DNA from: Roseburia sp.
Lineage (GTDB): Bacteria > Bacillota > Clostridia > Lachnospirales > Lachnospiraceae
DNA length: 64,000 nucleotides
Assembly: GCA_026168605.1 (NCBI GenBank)
Contig: JAPFDX010000015.1
Span: 62,001 to 126,000, forward strand
Direction: 5' to 3'
The notes below the pieces were generated by a model, which was given only the letters and a program-made list of their open reading frames with translations, searched no databases and was not told the origin of the DNA. The position numbers and the translations under genes are program-made. Positions within the stretch are counted from its first letter, which is position 1; the number at the start of each line of letters is the position of its first letter. Shown one piece after another: positions 20,494-28,228 of the stretch.

Positions 20494-20577
20494 CGTATCT
20501 TTTATCAAATTATTCGCTGTATATCACAGTATGACTGGGCATTGAGGAACTCAGTCATTCTGTTTCCCTGTCAATAG

Positions 20578-20793
20578 TTACAATCTGTTCAATTTGTCAA
20601 AATGCAGTTCTTTTAACACCCCCTTGTCATCGTCAAAAATATAGTCTCTCATATACGTGCTCTCTTCATGAGCGCACAGCCGGCTGGCGACACTCCTTGA
20701 CGTGTCAGGACACCCTTCCAGCCAGATGGTGATACCTCTGTCCTCTAAGGACAGCAGTTCCATATAAAGTGCGTATTCAGATTCATGCTCCAA
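20578..20793 (-). CDS. Small acidic protein, unknown
   Basis: 71 residues from a TTG start (20793) with GGGAGA upstream. It contains a Glu-rich N terminus and an unremarkable alpha/beta pattern, without membrane segment or known motif. It is the last gene of the kinase/MinD-like minus-strand group, 104 bp after the MinD-like gene, and may share its transcript. Function not recognised. Confidence 0.5.
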   Translation of the reverse strand: MEHESEYALYMELLSLEDRGITIWLEGCPDTSRSVASRLCAHEESTYMRDYIFDDDKGVLKELHFDKLNRL

Positions 20794-20897
20794 TTTGTAT
20801 ATCTCCCATATGTAAATTGACTGCCAAAAGGAATAATCCGCGGGTTACAAATTCGTGATATAAGTTGCCTGATCCCCGGCAGGCTGCCAGAACAAAA

Positions 20898-21521
20898 TTA
20901 AAGTTCTGTGGATAAAGCTCCCAGAAAAGGGAAGAGTTCCTTCTCGATCCGAAAAGGGTTTTTGATAAAAGGGACGGTTTGCAGATAGATGTGGTGTGTT
21001 TTGGAAAAAGAAGCCGATTCCTTTGCATTTCCCGTCTGCACAAGATAATCAAAACCTTTCCTAAGATCAATGTTGTCTGTAAATTTTTGAAAGAAAGCTT
21101 CGTATTCCCGGGACTTCCACGGGGCGAGACTGCCCAAAACCAGTTTGCGGTCACATCGCAGGAATTCCGGCAGCAGTCCTTCCTCCAGCGTTCCTGCATC
21201 GAGAACCAGACAGTCGTATCCCTGATTATAAAGAGCCGGTATTTCGTCGGCGGTGACCAGAGGATAGTAATCTGTTCGGCAGATGCGGATGTGGGGGCGT
21301 GTGTCCGGGCTGCCCGTGGAATGTAAAAATGTTTCCTCCGGGACGAGTCCTGCAATCTCATTTCTGCTGTGAAGCTCCAGATAGGCGCATTTTTTTCCGT
21401 ATCTGGAGGAACAATAACTGCAAAGGGAGATCGCGAGGTGTGTAACGCCCGCGCCACGGCTGCATCCGAGGATTCCGATGGTCAGATGTGACCCGTGTCC
21501 GTTTTTATCAAAGTGAAAAAT
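20898..21521 (-). CDS. MinD/ParA-like protein with degenerate P-loop; no standard start codon
   Basis: The frame is open from just after an in-frame TAA at about 21540 to 20898, yet it has no ATG, GTG or TTG before 21137. The N-terminal half reads LTIGILGCSRGAGVTH, a MinD-like P-loop in which the catalytic Lys is replaced by Val, and LVLDAG resembles Walker B. Two start routes are possible. One is ATT at 21521, eight bases after GGAGAGGAGG (207 residues). The other is a +1 shift from the kinase frame at CTT TGA, which would fuse the two. Role unknown; it may be a partner of the MinD-like tail of the kinase. Confidence 0.7.
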   Translation of the reverse strand: MFHFDKNGHGSHLTIGILGCSRGAGVTHLAISLCSYCSSRYGKKCAYLELHSRNEIAGLVPEETFLHSTGSPDTRPHIRICRTDYYPLVTADEIPALYNQGYDCLVLDAGTLEEGLLPEFLRCDRKLVLGSLAPWKSREYEAFFQKFTDNIDLRKGFDYLVQTGNAKESASFSKTHHIYLQTVPFIKNPFRIEKELFPFLGALSTEL

Positions 21522-22890
21522 GTCTAAGACCTCCTCTCCGTTTTAAGATCAGTGAAAAAAGCTGTTTTTTCTCGGAAGTGACGCTGTAAGCGTCCGTGTC
21601 GCTCGGAAAGCAATAGACCGCGCAGTCGAGCTGCTTTGCAAGACGCTTTGCAGCCGTTTTGTTTCCGTGGTTGCAGAGCAGTACCGTCTGCGGCAGCAGC
21701 GCAAGCTGCTTTGCAAACTGCTTTGCAGCGGAAATATCCCAGTCGCTGCCGGAGAGGACAAGCAGAATACAGTCTGCGGCTTTCACCGTTTCCCAGTCTG
21801 TACATTGTGTCCCGTAATCCCTGACGATACAGTCGTCAAAGGGCAGTGCGAGGGAAACGCCGTCCCCGTAATCGGGGACGCCCTTAAAATGCCGGTAGTA
21901 AAAGATGCCGTCCTGCTCTTTTACATGACGGTTGGAAACTGCGATTGCGTCAAGCGTCGCCTGCCCGTCTGCGGGCTGGTACAGTGCCGGTATGCCCCGA
22001 TTCTGCAGGGTGCAGACAAGCGATATGGCAATGTGTGTTGCGCCCGCGCCGGGGCGGCTCCCGAGAACAGCAATATTTCGGATGAGATGCAGATTCTGCC
22101 TGCGAGGTTTCTTTTGTGCGCGAAGCAGTGCCAGCTTCAGCTCGGAGACAGAAGGATAGCGCCGGTCGGGAAGCGGATCGCAGGCACACTGTATGATGTG
22201 CAGAAGACGCCGGGAGCATTTGACACCGGCGGCATCCGCCAGAAATTTCAAAATTTTCCCAAGTCCGAAAATGTCTGCCGCCGTCGTGACGGGTTGTCCC
22301 GACAGCGCTTCCGGAGCGCTGAATTCTTTTGTTCCGTAAAGCTGGAAATAGTTACCGGAACCGGTAAAAAAAGATGCAATTCCAAAGTCGATTAATTTCA
22401 CCTGATTTCCACATAATATAATATGCTCTGGTTTTAAATCCTGATACAGGATAGGGTATGGAGATAAATGATGCAGATAATCAAGGATATCGCACAACTG
22501 GATGCCGATTTTAAGGATCAGTTCCGGTGAGATGTCTCTTGGATGGAGCACAAATGTGTCCAGTGATTCACCCTGGATATATTCTTCAACCATATAAATG
22601 AAATCGTCGTCCTCGTCGATATCATATATGAGGGGGATTCCGGGATGATTCAGATTCTTCAGAAGCTCGGCTTCCATAGGAAAGCCTGAGTCCAGAGAAA
22701 ACGAAGAAGTTTCCGCCGTGTTTCTGGGGATACATTTGATGGCGCGAAAAATCTTCAGTTTGAGATGTTCGGCAAGATAAACGGTACCGAAACTACCGGA
22801 ACCGAGCACGGAGATTATCCGGTACTTGCCAGACAGAATAAATGGTTCTATTGCAAAATCCGCTCCTTTCATGGCGAAGCAGATCTGCAT
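21508..22890 (-). CDS. Hanks-type Ser/Thr kinase fused to a degenerate MinD-like domain
   Basis: 460 residues. The kinase domain (about 20-258) has the glycine loop LGSGSFGTVY, Lys52 in AIKCI, and DFG at 168-170. The HRD motif is YQD (149-151), keeping the catalytic Asp but losing His and Arg. The C-terminal part (270-460) is MinD/ParA-like; its P-loop GSRPGAGATH has Ala where Lys is expected, so ATP hydrolysis there is doubtful. There are no membrane helices or PASTA repeats, unlike PrkC. The start is 22890, or 22872 from a second in-frame ATG. It overlaps the next gene by 14 bp. Confidence 0.82.
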   Translation of the reverse strand: MQICFAMKGADFAIEPFILSGKYRIISVLGSGSFGTVYLAEHLKLKIFRAIKCIPRNTAETSSFSLDSGFPMEAELLKNLNHPGIPLIYDIDEDDDFIYMVEEYIQGESLDTFVLHPRDISPELILKIGIQLCDILDYLHHLSPYPILYQDLKPEHIILCGNQVKLIDFGIASFFTGSGNYFQLYGTKEFSAPEALSGQPVTTAADIFGLGKILKFLADAAGVKCSRRLLHIIQCACDPLPDRRYPSVSELKLALLRAQKKPRRQNLHLIRNIAVLGSRPGAGATHIAISLVCTLQNRGIPALYQPADGQATLDAIAVSNRHVKEQDGIFYYRHFKGVPDYGDGVSLALPFDDCIVRDYGTQCTDWETVKAADCILLVLSGSDWDISAAKQFAKQLALLPQTVLLCNHGNKTAAKRLAKQLDCAVYCFPSDTDAYSVTSEKKQLFSLILKRRGGLRHFSL

Positions 22891-23022
22891 CTCATGTACT
22901 GGTTATAACATGAAAGATGTAGTTTGACAATTGTTTTTCAAAAGATTGTGCATATTTCACAAATTTTAAGGTAAAAAAGGCGGCACGTATTTAGTTTACA
23001 AACTTTTAATAAAAAGGTATAC

Positions 23023-23051
23023 TTTACATCATTATGGCATTTGTTTATAAT
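23023..23051 (+). promoter_or_regulatory. SigA-type promoter of mecA
   Basis: TTTACA, 17 bp, TATAAT, about 40 bp before the mecA start in the 205-bp space between divergent genes. I see no clear promoter for the kinase in the same space. Confidence 0.65.
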
Positions 23052-23095
23052 AAATGTACAGTTTACAAGGTTTTCCGGATAAAGGAAGTGATGGA

Positions 23096-23875
23096 ATGAG
23101 AATTGAAAAGGTAAGCGATAATCAGATTCGTTGTACATTGACAAGAGAAGACTTGGCAGAGCGGCAGATCAAGCTCAGTGAACTGGCATATGGAACAGAG
23201 AAGGCGAAGCTTTTGTTTCGCGATATGATGCAGCAGGCAGCATATGAGTTCGGTTTTGAGGCAGATGATATACCGCTTATGATAGAGGCGATTCCGTTGT
23301 CGGCGGATACGATCATATTAGTTGTTACAAAAGTAGAATATCCGGAGGAGCTTGACACCCGGTTCTCGAAGTTTTCAGAGCCGGATCCGGAGGATGTTTA
23401 TGAGGACGGGGCGGATGGTGCGGAAACCGCAGGATTTGAAGGCGCGGACGACGTACTCGGATTGTTCCGTAAGATTCAGGAGGAACGGCGCAAGGCGGAG
23501 GAAGCGGAGAAGAAAGAGGACAGCGGCGCTGCCACAGAGGAGAGCGCGAAGAAGAAAAATACACCGGTAAACGTACTTGTAGACATTACGAAGCTGTTTG
23601 TTTTTAGCGATCTCGCAGATGTGATCCGGCTCGCGCACGTACTGGACGGTTTTTACACGGGTACGAACGATCTGTATAAGAGTGTGGAAGGACATCGGTA
23701 CTATCTTGTGATCAGCAAGAACCGGCAGACGCCGGAGGAGTTTAACAAGGTCTGCAATATCCTTTCGGAATACGGGGCGCCGCAGACCTGCACGGCGGCG
23801 ACGGGAGCTTTTTTTGAAGAGCACTACCAGCCGGTGGTGAAGGGTACAGCGCTTCAGACACTGGCACAATTATAA
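23096..23875 (+). CDS. mecA: MecA-family adaptor protein
   Basis: 259 residues from the ATG at 23096 (MRIEKVSDNQIRC). The N-terminal domain ends near residue 90, followed by an acidic linker (100-165) and the C-terminal domain (FVFSDLADVIRLA ... YYLVISKNR). MecA delivers substrates to the ClpC ATPase; in Bacillus the main target is ComK. This family is widespread in Firmicutes that are not competent, so the target here is open. It has its own promoter and terminator. Confidence 0.88.
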   Translation: MRIEKVSDNQIRCTLTREDLAERQIKLSELAYGTEKAKLLFRDMMQQAAYEFGFEADDIPLMIEAIPLSADTIILVVTKVEYPEELDTRFSKFSEPDPEDVYEDGADGAETAGFEGADDVLGLFRKIQEERRKAEEAEKKEDSGAATEESAKKKNTPVNVLVDITKLFVFSDLADVIRLAHVLDGFYTGTNDLYKSVEGHRYYLVISKNRQTPEEFNKVCNILSEYGAPQTCTAATGAFFEEHYQPVVKGTALQTLAQL

Positions 23876-25820: not shown

Positions 25821-26297
25821 TTGACAAAAGAACAGATTGGAGATTTTACGAGAAGGATCAGTCAGTCCAACCGCGGCGAACTGGTTGTGATCATGTATGA
25901 TATCGCGTTTGTTTACATGGAGGACGCCGTCCGGGCGCATGAGGAAGAATCGTGGGAAGCCTATAAGGAGGCGCTGCGCAAGGGGCAGCAGATGATGAAT
26001 GAGCTGATCGGAGCGCTGGACTTCTCCTATGATATGGCAAAAAATCTCTGCAGTATCTACATTTTTTGCAGGGATCTGCTTGCCGGGGCGATCTATAAAA
26101 GAGAGACGGAGGACATTGCTGCCGCAGAGCGATTGCTGCGAAAGCTCTACGATGGTTTTGTCCATGCCGCGAAAGAGGATACGTCGGAGCCGCTCATGAG
26201 GAATACCCAGCAGATTTATGCCGGGTATACCTACGGGCGCGGTGATCTGGTAGAGACGTGTCAGGATTCCGGTACATCCAGAGGATTCTTTGCATAA
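25821..26297 (+). CDS. fliS: Flagellar export chaperone FliS
   Basis: 158 residues from TTG 25821 with a perfect GGAGGT upstream. The helical bundle contains ISQSNRGELVVIMYDIA near the N terminus, a sequence typical of FliS, which caps the C terminus of flagellin to stop early polymerisation. The C-terminal tail is longer than the usual 120-130 residues. Position directly after flagellin supports the call. Its end overlaps the converging DUF2508 gene by 37 bp. Confidence 0.85.
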   Translation: MTKEQIGDFTRRISQSNRGELVVIMYDIAFVYMEDAVRAHEEESWEAYKEALRKGQQMMNELIGALDFSYDMAKNLCSIYIFCRDLLAGAIYKRETEDIAAAERLLRKLYDGFVHAAKEDTSEPLMRNTQQIYAGYTYGRGDLVETCQDSGTSRGFFA

Positions 26298-26760: not shown

Positions 26761-27195
26761 TTGACACTGTCTGTACTATTGCTGGCAGCAGTGTTTATGG
26801 ACTTCCGGGAGCAGCGCATCAGTAACCGGCTGATCGCTTTCGGACTATTCAGTGGTCTGATACTCCGCATCGTGGGGGAGGGAAGTATCGGCATCGTTCA
26901 TTTCATGGTGAACATTTCTATTCCGGTTATCTTATTATTTCTTTTATTTCAACTGCGTGCACTGGGCGCAGGAGATATCAAATTGTTTTCCGTAGTAGGT
27001 GGATTTTTGATGATGGAACAGCTATTTGCAGTCATGCTCGCTTCATTTTTTGCGGGTGCGGTGATTGGTCTGGGGAAGAAGCTGTACCGGAAGTTTCTGC
27101 TGGGAAAGGAAAACGAGACAAGAACTCTGATACATTTTTCACTTGCAATTTTAATTGGATATGCAGTAGTAGTCTGGGGGTGTGCCATTGGGTAA
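26761..27195 (+). CDS. tadV: A24-family prepilin peptidase (TadV/CpaA type)
   Basis: About 144 residues, all membrane helices. The two catalytic aspartates of the A24 family are in FMDFREQRI and GAGDIK. It cleaves the leader of Flp prepilins. The start is uncertain: TTG 26761 has little ribosome binding site, while GAGAGGTGAT at 26733-26740 is placed for an in-frame ATT at 26743, and the nearby TTG at 26744 is out of frame. First gene of the Tad operon; its end overlaps the next gene. Confidence 0.82.
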   Translation: MTLSVLLLAAVFMDFREQRISNRLIAFGLFSGLILRIVGEGSIGIVHFMVNISIPVILLFLLFQLRALGAGDIKLFSVVGGFLMMEQLFAVMLASFFAGAVIGLGKKLYRKFLLGKENETRTLIHFSLAILIGYAVVVWGCAIG

Positions 27196-28228
27196 AATCG
27201 AGGTGGCGGTCTGCGACACGGATCACGGATACAGGGAGCGGTTCGTCACATATTTGGTAGAACATAAATCGAAGGAGTTTACTGTACACGCCTTTTCGTC
27301 GGCGGAGTATTTTCTGGAGGCGCTGGAAAAGTGCGGTTTTGACGTTGCCGTATTCGGGAGGGGCTTCGCAGAGGCAGAGGAGACGGTGCGCGGGCAGGGG
27401 ATTCCGCTGGTGCTGTTAAAAGATACCATGACAGAGTGTGCGGCGGAAAGCTCTCCCTATCTGGAGGGAGAGAAAATTATGATAGCATCCGTGTTCCGCT
27501 ATCAGCCGGTGGAGATGATTCTCCATGAAGTGCAGGCGCTGGCCGGGGGGAGCAAGACGGAGAAGGAGACTTTTATGCGCCTGGCGCGTCTGGAAGTCAT
27601 CGGTGTCTGCTCGCCCATCGTACATGAGATGCAGATGCCTTTTTCGCTGGTGCTGACGGAGCTTCTGGCAGAAAAAAGAAAGGTGCTCTATATCAATCTG
27701 ATGCGCTTTAGCGGGTTTCTGGAACTGTTTGGGCTGCCGGGATCGTGCGATATGGGAGACATTATTTTGCGGCTGCGTGGCAGGCGGCTTAAGACGGAGA
27801 ATTTCCGGAAGTGCGTTTATGAAAACAACGGAATTTATTACATACCGCCGTTTGGCAATCCGGATAATCTTTATGACATGACGGGCAGAGATCTTTTAAA
27901 CTTTCTTTCCTTTCTGGAGGAGGAAACCGATTTTGAGACGGTGCTTCTGGATCTTGGCGAGGGAATCCGCAATCTGCAGGAAATACTCGGCACGTGCAGC
28001 AGCATTTACTGTCTTGTAAAGGCGGGATTCTTTTATGAGACCAGAATTGCGGAGTTTCAGGAGTATCTGCAAAAGAGCGGTGTGCAAGACGTAGCCGAGC
28101 GTCTGCAAATGGTTGCGCTCCCGTTTTCTGCGAAGCAGCTTCGGGGCGGTATGGATGTAAGACGACAGCTTTTGTGGAGTGAGTTTGGCGATTATGTGCG
28201 GAATATCTTTCGGGGAGGCGGGCTATGA
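27188..28228 (+). CDS. tadZ: TadZ/CpaE-like pilus assembly ATPase homologue
   Basis: 346 residues from TTG 27188 with GGGGGTG upstream (a GTG at 27182 is possible). A receiver-like N-terminal domain (1-115) precedes a MinD-like domain (about 135-340). The P-loop position (GVCSPIVHEMQMPF) has lost the Walker A residues, as is frequent in TadZ. LLDLGEG resembles Walker B. TadZ marks the pilus assembly site at the pole in known systems. It overlaps tadV and, by ATGA, tadA. Confidence 0.75.
   Translation: MGKIEVAVCDTDHGYRERFVTYLVEHKSKEFTVHAFSSAEYFLEALEKCGFDVAVFGRGFAEAEETVRGQGIPLVLLKDTMTECAAESSPYLEGEKIMIASVFRYQPVEMILHEVQALAGGSKTEKETFMRLARLEVIGVCSPIVHEMQMPFSLVLTELLAEKRKVLYINLMRFSGFLELFGLPGSCDMGDIILRLRGRRLKTENFRKCVYENNGIYYIPPFGNPDNLYDMTGRDLLNFLSFLEEETDFETVLLDLGEGIRNLQEILGTCSSIYCLVKAGFFYETRIAEFQEYLQKSGVQDVAERLQMVALPFSAKQLRGGMDVRRQLLWSEFGDYVRNIFRGGGL

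Follow-up and report, generated by a model that had tools for sequence, protein, structure and literature searches.

The MinD2 gene of the window (the whole stretch of 64,000 nucleotides of Roseburia sp. DNA analyzed here) is very likely translated from an AUU codon at 21521-21519, independently of the kinase-MinD1 gene that it overlaps; the latter probably starts at the AUA codon 22851-22849, and the operon formed by the two genes is most likely throttled, as judged from comparative sequence analysis. In the mechanism that we propose, a strong Shine-Dalgarno sequence (SD) located within the last part of the kinase gene would place ribosomes on the AUU, and kinase-MinD1 would be translated from the AUA. 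Both start codons would be discriminated against by the initiation factor IF3, and a low output of both proteins is therefore the most likely outcome; this output would possibly follow the condition of the initiation machinery, in the manner of infC. IF3 is described as disfavoring both non-canonical triplets and SDs of excessive length (PMC4611024), and non-canonical starts with a strong SD in Staphylococcus aureus are reported to yield about 10% of an AUG reporter, with ccpN reaching up to 30% in rich medium (PMC13009471).

All the elements named in the original prediction are present, at positions that were right to within a few bases (Table 1). The MinD2 frame, on the minus strand, is closed upstream by a TAA at exactly 21545-21543, ends at the TAA 20900-20898 and, as had been claimed, contains no ATG, GTG or TTG before 21137; its only standard starts are TTG 21137 and GTG 21041, both within the domain. 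The SD stands where it was predicted, eight bases ahead of the ATT when counted from the SD core. The kinase frame ends with CTT TGA T, from which a +1 shift enters the MinD2 frame, also as predicted, and the two genes overlap by 14 nt.

Table 1. Coordinates of the two genes and of their putative initiation signals in the window
Feature	Position	Strand	Remarks
MinD2 gene, MinD/FlhG-like protein	20898..21521	(-)	207 codons + stop
In-frame TAA closing the MinD2 frame upstream	21543..21545	(-)	
MinD2 Shine-Dalgarno GGAGAGGAGG	21530..21539	(-)	Within the kinase-MinD1 coding sequence
MinD2 putative start codon ATT (AUU)	21519..21521	(-)	ATT 43, ATC 6, ATA 4, ATG 4 of 57 same-genus genomes
Kinase-MinD1 gene, Ser/Thr kinase + C-terminal MinD/ParA-like domain	21508..22851	(-)	Pfam PF00069, PDB PknB-like chains, weak ParA match
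Kinase-MinD1 stop TGA	21508..21510	(-)	CTT directly before
Kinase-MinD1 Shine-Dalgarno AAAGGAG	22863..22869	(-)	
Kinase-MinD1 proposed start ATA	22849..22851	(-)	AUH at site in 22/25 readable loci of the window's clade

The upstream protein bears a protein kinase domain of the type found in PknB-like Ser/Thr kinases (PF00069, E 1.6e-37, 129.8 bits), and its residues 273-395 gave a ParA match that is weak (E 0.0014). MinD2 matched no Pfam family at E 0.1 and gave a weak profile match to the site-determining-protein chains 4rz2 and 4rz3 (E 0.004-0.006), which we take to be FlhG. The motif of the MinD/ParA family is a deviant Walker A with a signature lysine and a P-loop lysine. Alignments inspected by eye did not reveal this motif: at 20901-21521 and at about 21511-22080 (-), the P-loop region reads GAGxTH without a lysine (GCSRGAGVTH and GSRPGAGATH; by eye), and both MinD-like domains may therefore not be ordinary ATPases. 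MinD2 thus resembles the MinD/FlhG/CpaE-TadZ-like ATPases through its weak FlhG-type profile match, but differs from them by its lack of signature lysines and of a Pfam family.

The putative MinD2 start across the genus

A match to MinD2 was found in 57 of the 62 same-genus genomes searched. Only the best match per genome (30 loci and 27 loci) entered the genus set, eight weaker second matches being excluded. The named relatives, 19 loci obtained by profile search, are records of Roseburia sp., other Lachnospiraceae or Clostridiales; scanning named genomes with the single protein as the query returned no match. Eight or nine nucleotides after the SD core, the MinD2 codon is distributed as listed in Table 1, and GTG or TTG occupies this position in none of the 57 genomes. 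Manual placement was used for the starts of L031, L047 and L054; in L047, the ATG lies at a spacing of 7. An SD followed by AUU, AUC or AUA (hereafter AUH) in the MinD2 frame is found in 53 of the 57 genomes, and in 39 of these 53 loci the stretch that separates the start from the in-frame stop upstream contains no ATG, GTG or TTG. An automatic SD-anchored rule assigned AUH to 47 of the 57 loci, a standard codon to 4, another codon to 1 and no SD to 5, and the same rule applied to the other two frames returned AUH in 2/57 and 2/57. Since AUH occurs at 53 of 57 loci, and in frame at 47 as against 2 and 2 out of frame, the association of the SD with AUH in the MinD2 frame exceeds chance.

The original prediction had proposed that conservation of AUU together with its ribosome binding site would argue for AUU initiation, and this is what the genus displays: a weak codon (AUU, or else AUC or AUA) kept across relatives, at the proper distance from an SD and in the right frame. 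It had also held that homologues with an ordinary ATG would speak against such initiation. These do exist, often outside the genus and in four genomes within it, where they represent four separate changes at the tips of a tree of the joined kinase and MinD2 proteins; AUH is retained elsewhere in the genus. AUU initiation of MinD2 is thus strongly supported by sequence conservation.

The most serious competing explanation is that MinD2 is translated by termination-reinitiation after the kinase, the strong SD tolerating weak codons and leaving the start free to drift. Indeed, 54 of the 57 loci have the kinase stop 1-116 nt 3′ of the position where MinD2 starts, and excess IF3 is reported to lower reinitiation in Escherichia coli too (PMC2268962). 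However, free drift predicts GTG and TTG as well, neither of which occurs in the 57 genomes, and the codons used are strongly biased toward ATT. Moreover, some overlaps span 43 to 116 nt, long distances for reinitiation, and the kinase, although the first gene of the pair, has AUH starts as well. On balance, reinitiation as the source of MinD2 appears rather unlikely, and coupling to kinase translation through the overlap may act alongside the weak codon. In three loci (L006, L041 and L053), the kinase terminates short of MinD2, the codon at the MinD2 start being ATT, ATC and ATT, respectively; AUH is thus retained where the genes do not overlap, and the overlapping kinase frame therefore does not force it.

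Independent initiation at AUH also has to be weighed against the reading of the conserved triplet as an elongator isoleucine codon within a longer protein begun at an upstream standard codon. At least one upstream in-frame ATG, GTG or TTG is indeed carried by 14 of the 53 AUH loci, but the remaining 39 carry none, and the aligned column itself does not behave like an internal isoleucine: it contains Ile in 53 sequences, Met in 4 and neither Val nor Leu, so that Ile is exchanged with Met only. In eight internal MinD2 columns with at least 40% Ile, this residue is exchanged with Val, Leu or Phe, one of these columns also having a single Met along with some other residues. Codon usage differs likewise, with ATT/ATC/ATA counts of 43/6/4 at the start versus 336/263/155 at internal isoleucines (chi-square 28.7, P 6e-7, a value that ignores the kinship of the species and hence overstates the evidence). 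An elongator codon is accordingly a highly improbable explanation.

The original prediction had offered as its alternative a +1 frameshift of the prfB type at CUU UGA, yielding a kinase-MinD-MinD fusion, together with a search for conserved CUUUGA in related genomes. The end of the kinase frame in the window is compatible with such an event, and the junction shares CUU UGA with prfB, but the resemblance stops there. CTTTGA is present in just 3 of the 57 loci, the shift needed would be -1 in 38, +1 in 18 and neither in 1, and the register is therefore not a constant +1. In that one locus, both frames lie in the same register with a stop between them, and in L006, L041 and L053 the kinase terminates 5′ of the MinD2 start. 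The SD of prfB sits about 3 nt ahead of the shift site; here, the spacing fits the ATT, in agreement with the earlier remark that the ribosome binding site is placed for an AUU start and not for stimulation of a frameshift. With the heptad not conserved and the registers differing, the fusion is scarcely credible, and the comparison of registers and stops led to its rejection.

That a sequencing or assembly error, or the decay of a pseudogene, removed an ordinary MinD2 start, as could happen in a single draft genome, has a practically negligible probability given that the same layout recurs in 53 of 57 genomes and that the MinD2 frame is open, with invariant residues over 43 aligned sequences; a sequence error at the start was ruled out by conservation in relatives.

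The probable kinase start and controls

The kinase-MinD1 gene probably starts at the ATA listed in Table 1, a point absent from the original prediction. Its AAAGGAG precedes the ATA by 10 nt, counted from the SD core, and none of the window's in-frame ATGs ahead of the kinase domain is preceded at 5-11 nt by an SD match of at least 5 nt. When the kinase 5′ ends of the window's clade are aligned, AAAGGAG is followed by ATA at 8-10 nt from the SD core, ahead of the domain. Among the 56 same-genus loci that include the 5′ end, the codon at the kinase start is ATG in 28, ATA in 19, ATT in 4, ATC in 1 and GTT in 1, with 3 unresolved. The AUH codons are found in 22 of the 25 readable members of one clade of 26 species (SH-aLRT 100), as well as in L055 and L056; the exceptions in the clade are L011, which is cut off, L017 and L018, which have ATG, and L024, which has GTT at the position of the AUA. 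Seven loci (L002, L005, L006, L008, L012, L014 and L019) contain no standard start from the in-frame stop to the kinase domain, and the sole standard codon of four further AUH loci is a TTG beyond SD range; several relatives, like the window, carry in-frame ATGs upstream of the AUH. The kinase gene hence also displays a weak codon placed in frame by an SD and kept across relatives. With spacings of 2-11, the automatic rule returned AUH for 26 of the 56 loci, a standard codon for 21, CUG/ACG for 1, another codon for 1 and no SD for 7. With spacings of 5-10, AUH was found in frame in 25/56 loci versus 11/56 and 0/56 out of frame, a control that is less clean than that of MinD2. In the kinase leader, at about 22870-22905 (-), the two clades of the genus share a conserved GAGATGC-like stretch, as judged by eye, and among the small upstream open reading frames (ORFs) of this leader no single frame is kept between species (by eye).

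The starts of infC and rpmI served as controls. The infC gene of the same genome has the arrangement TGGAGGTACGGTACA-ATT; across 30 loci, the infC start is ATT in 29/29 parsed and that of rpmI is ATG in 28/28 parsed. The usual 16S tail, including the anti-SD, is also matched perfectly in the genome. Fifty conserved ORFs of the window were then compared with up to seven relatives, an ORF being called AUH-only when it had an SD-supported AUH or CUG without any SD-supported standard start. Only MinD2 and the kinase were AUH/CUG-only in all 8 genomes; the A24 peptidase was so in 2/8. The anchored rule applied to the other 48 ORFs gave 85 standard codons, 12 AUH (6 of which belong to the A24 peptidase), 4 CUG/ACG, 17 other codons, 16 without a codon and 183 without an SD; these 183 of 317 control readings lack a 6-nt SD, and the control rests on the remainder. 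A cruder control on 19 loci and the window, which took the longest ORF as the start and is superseded by the two preceding ones, gave AUH/CUG-only calls for MinD2 in 19/20 and for the kinase in 18/19, and also for the A24 peptidase (11/14), flagellin (2/15), a FliK-like gene (1/11) and an amidase (1/15). Searches for other control elements were negative or uninformative: predicted RNA accessibility at the MinD2 start averages 0.44, versus 0.44 at control positions, that of the SD being level with controls too, and indicates no structural switch; Rfam returned zero matches in 20500-23200 of the window at E up to 1; and a promoter and terminator scan found 6 and 3 matches versus 3.5 and 2.7 in shuffled sequences, which is uninformative.

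Other genera and genomic neighborhood

A profile search of 397 genomes of the family returned matches in 114, including two from the window's genus, and 60 loci from other genera (20 and 40) were examined among the better-scoring, mostly stand-alone matches. For the kinase, the SD-anchored rule with spacings of 5-10 gave AUH in 21 of these 60 loci and a standard codon in 1, the remainder showing a different codon, lacking an SD or offering no codon within the open frame; the 21 AUH loci represent 18 genus codes (counted by hand). With spacings of 2-11, the same 60 loci gave AUH in 27, ATG in 7, CUG/ACG in 4, other codons in 8, none in 4 and no SD in 10. Without the open-frame limit, AUH was found in 22 loci in frame versus 6 and 4 out of frame. 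The SD matches of some of these kinase genes reach 10-11 nt. Five loci (L215, L220, L233, L234 and L238) pair a kinase SD that matches over 8-10 nt with TTA or ACG where the start would be expected; some of them may have an in-frame GTG within the SD.

MinD2 starts beyond the genus are mixed. The 60 loci have 32 standard, 6 AUH, 2 CTG and 3 ambiguous starts, with none in 17, and the anchored rule applied to the same loci gave 9 standard, 7 AUH, 2 CUG/ACG, 17 other, 1 none and 24 without an SD. An earlier pass over 28 other-genus loci, some of them included in these 60, counted 13 standard, 7 non-standard and 6 weak starts, plus 2 loci without an SD. It is a tentative possibility, more doubtful than not, that the operon is family-wide with both cistrons on IF3-discriminated starts, in which case the output of the kinase would read the state of initiation (IF3 level, growth) and not only transcription.

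With respect to the neighborhood, genes of a Tad cluster lie upstream in 13 of the 19 named loci, 4 loci end too early and 2 (L134 and L136) have none. Within about 9 kb, the 20 other-genus loci all have GH18, 19 have MecA and 17 an amidase; a CpaF relative occurs in 1, and a link to the Tad pilus was thus not established. Co-occurrence with DUF6382 is uninformative, this domain being present in 384 of the 397 family genomes. Directly 3′ of MinD2 lies a small conserved gene of 71 codons (20581-20793, minus strand) with no Pfam match at E 0.01, which is near MinD2 in 16/19 named and 10/20 other-genus loci; its aligned start reads TTG in 15 of the 17 printed rows (by eye). TTG is also found at the aligned start of a TadZ-like gene (27182-28228, plus strand) and of a FliS-like gene (25821-26297, plus strand), in 12 of 13 printed rows each (by eye); weak starts are therefore frequent in the region. 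The prepilin peptidase of the Tad locus (PF01478; 26743-27195, plus strand) has an SD-like AGAGGTGATGA and then an ATT, immediately after an in-frame TGA. By eye, this codon is ATT in 17, ATC in 1, GTT in 4 and GTC in 2 of 30 same-genus loci, the other 6 having another layout, and no standard start is nearby in L186, L191 and L203; because GTT and GTC occur at the site, an ATT start of this gene is uncertain.

Comparison with known weak-start genes

The closest parallel is infC, the gene of IF3, which starts at AUU and is autoregulated. In the same genome, infC also has an SD, 9 nt and an ATT, and its AUU is conserved. On the other hand, infC encodes the discriminating factor itself, whereas the genes described here encode a kinase and MinD-like products, and the MinD2 start overlaps another gene. 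To our knowledge, few genes besides infC retain AUU, AUA or AUC starts over evolutionary time. Here, putative weak starts are kept almost genus-wide for MinD2, and in one clade and 21 other-genus loci for the kinase, which suggests that translation is deliberately throttled. The kinase-MinD operon thereby makes it possible to ask, in a natural setting, whether genes other than that of IF3 are regulated through IF3-discriminated starts. Gene finders that accept only ATG, GTG and TTG would miss these starts or put them in the wrong place, and the kinase-MinD2 family is therefore likely misannotated. None of the titles and abstract openings searched describes this operon.

Other single genes share part of the arrangement. 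The S. aureus genes ccpN (AUA) and cvfC1 (AUU) are reported to combine a conserved non-canonical start with a strong SD, ccpN being a regulator as well; these are single genes documented by ribosome profiling and reporters (PMC13009471), whereas an overlapping pair known from its sequence is described here in Lachnospiraceae. The pcnB gene of E. coli, with an AUU start (cited in PMC13009471), likewise has a weak start that limits its translation. Its function differs. RcsD-Hpt of Yersinia is reported to start at an AUU located inside another gene (PMC10191623), and pncA of Borrelia, which also starts at AUU, is reported to be still mis-annotated in databases (PMC13398362). As described, the last two are single cases, whereas the putative weak start of MinD2 is kept across a genus.

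By their sequence features, the kinase and MinD2 genes thus appear to join infC, pcnB, cvfC1 and ccpN among the genes with weak starts. We know of no partner gene with a weak start for pcnB; the unusual points here are the putative weak start of each gene in an overlapping pair and the breadth over which these starts are kept.
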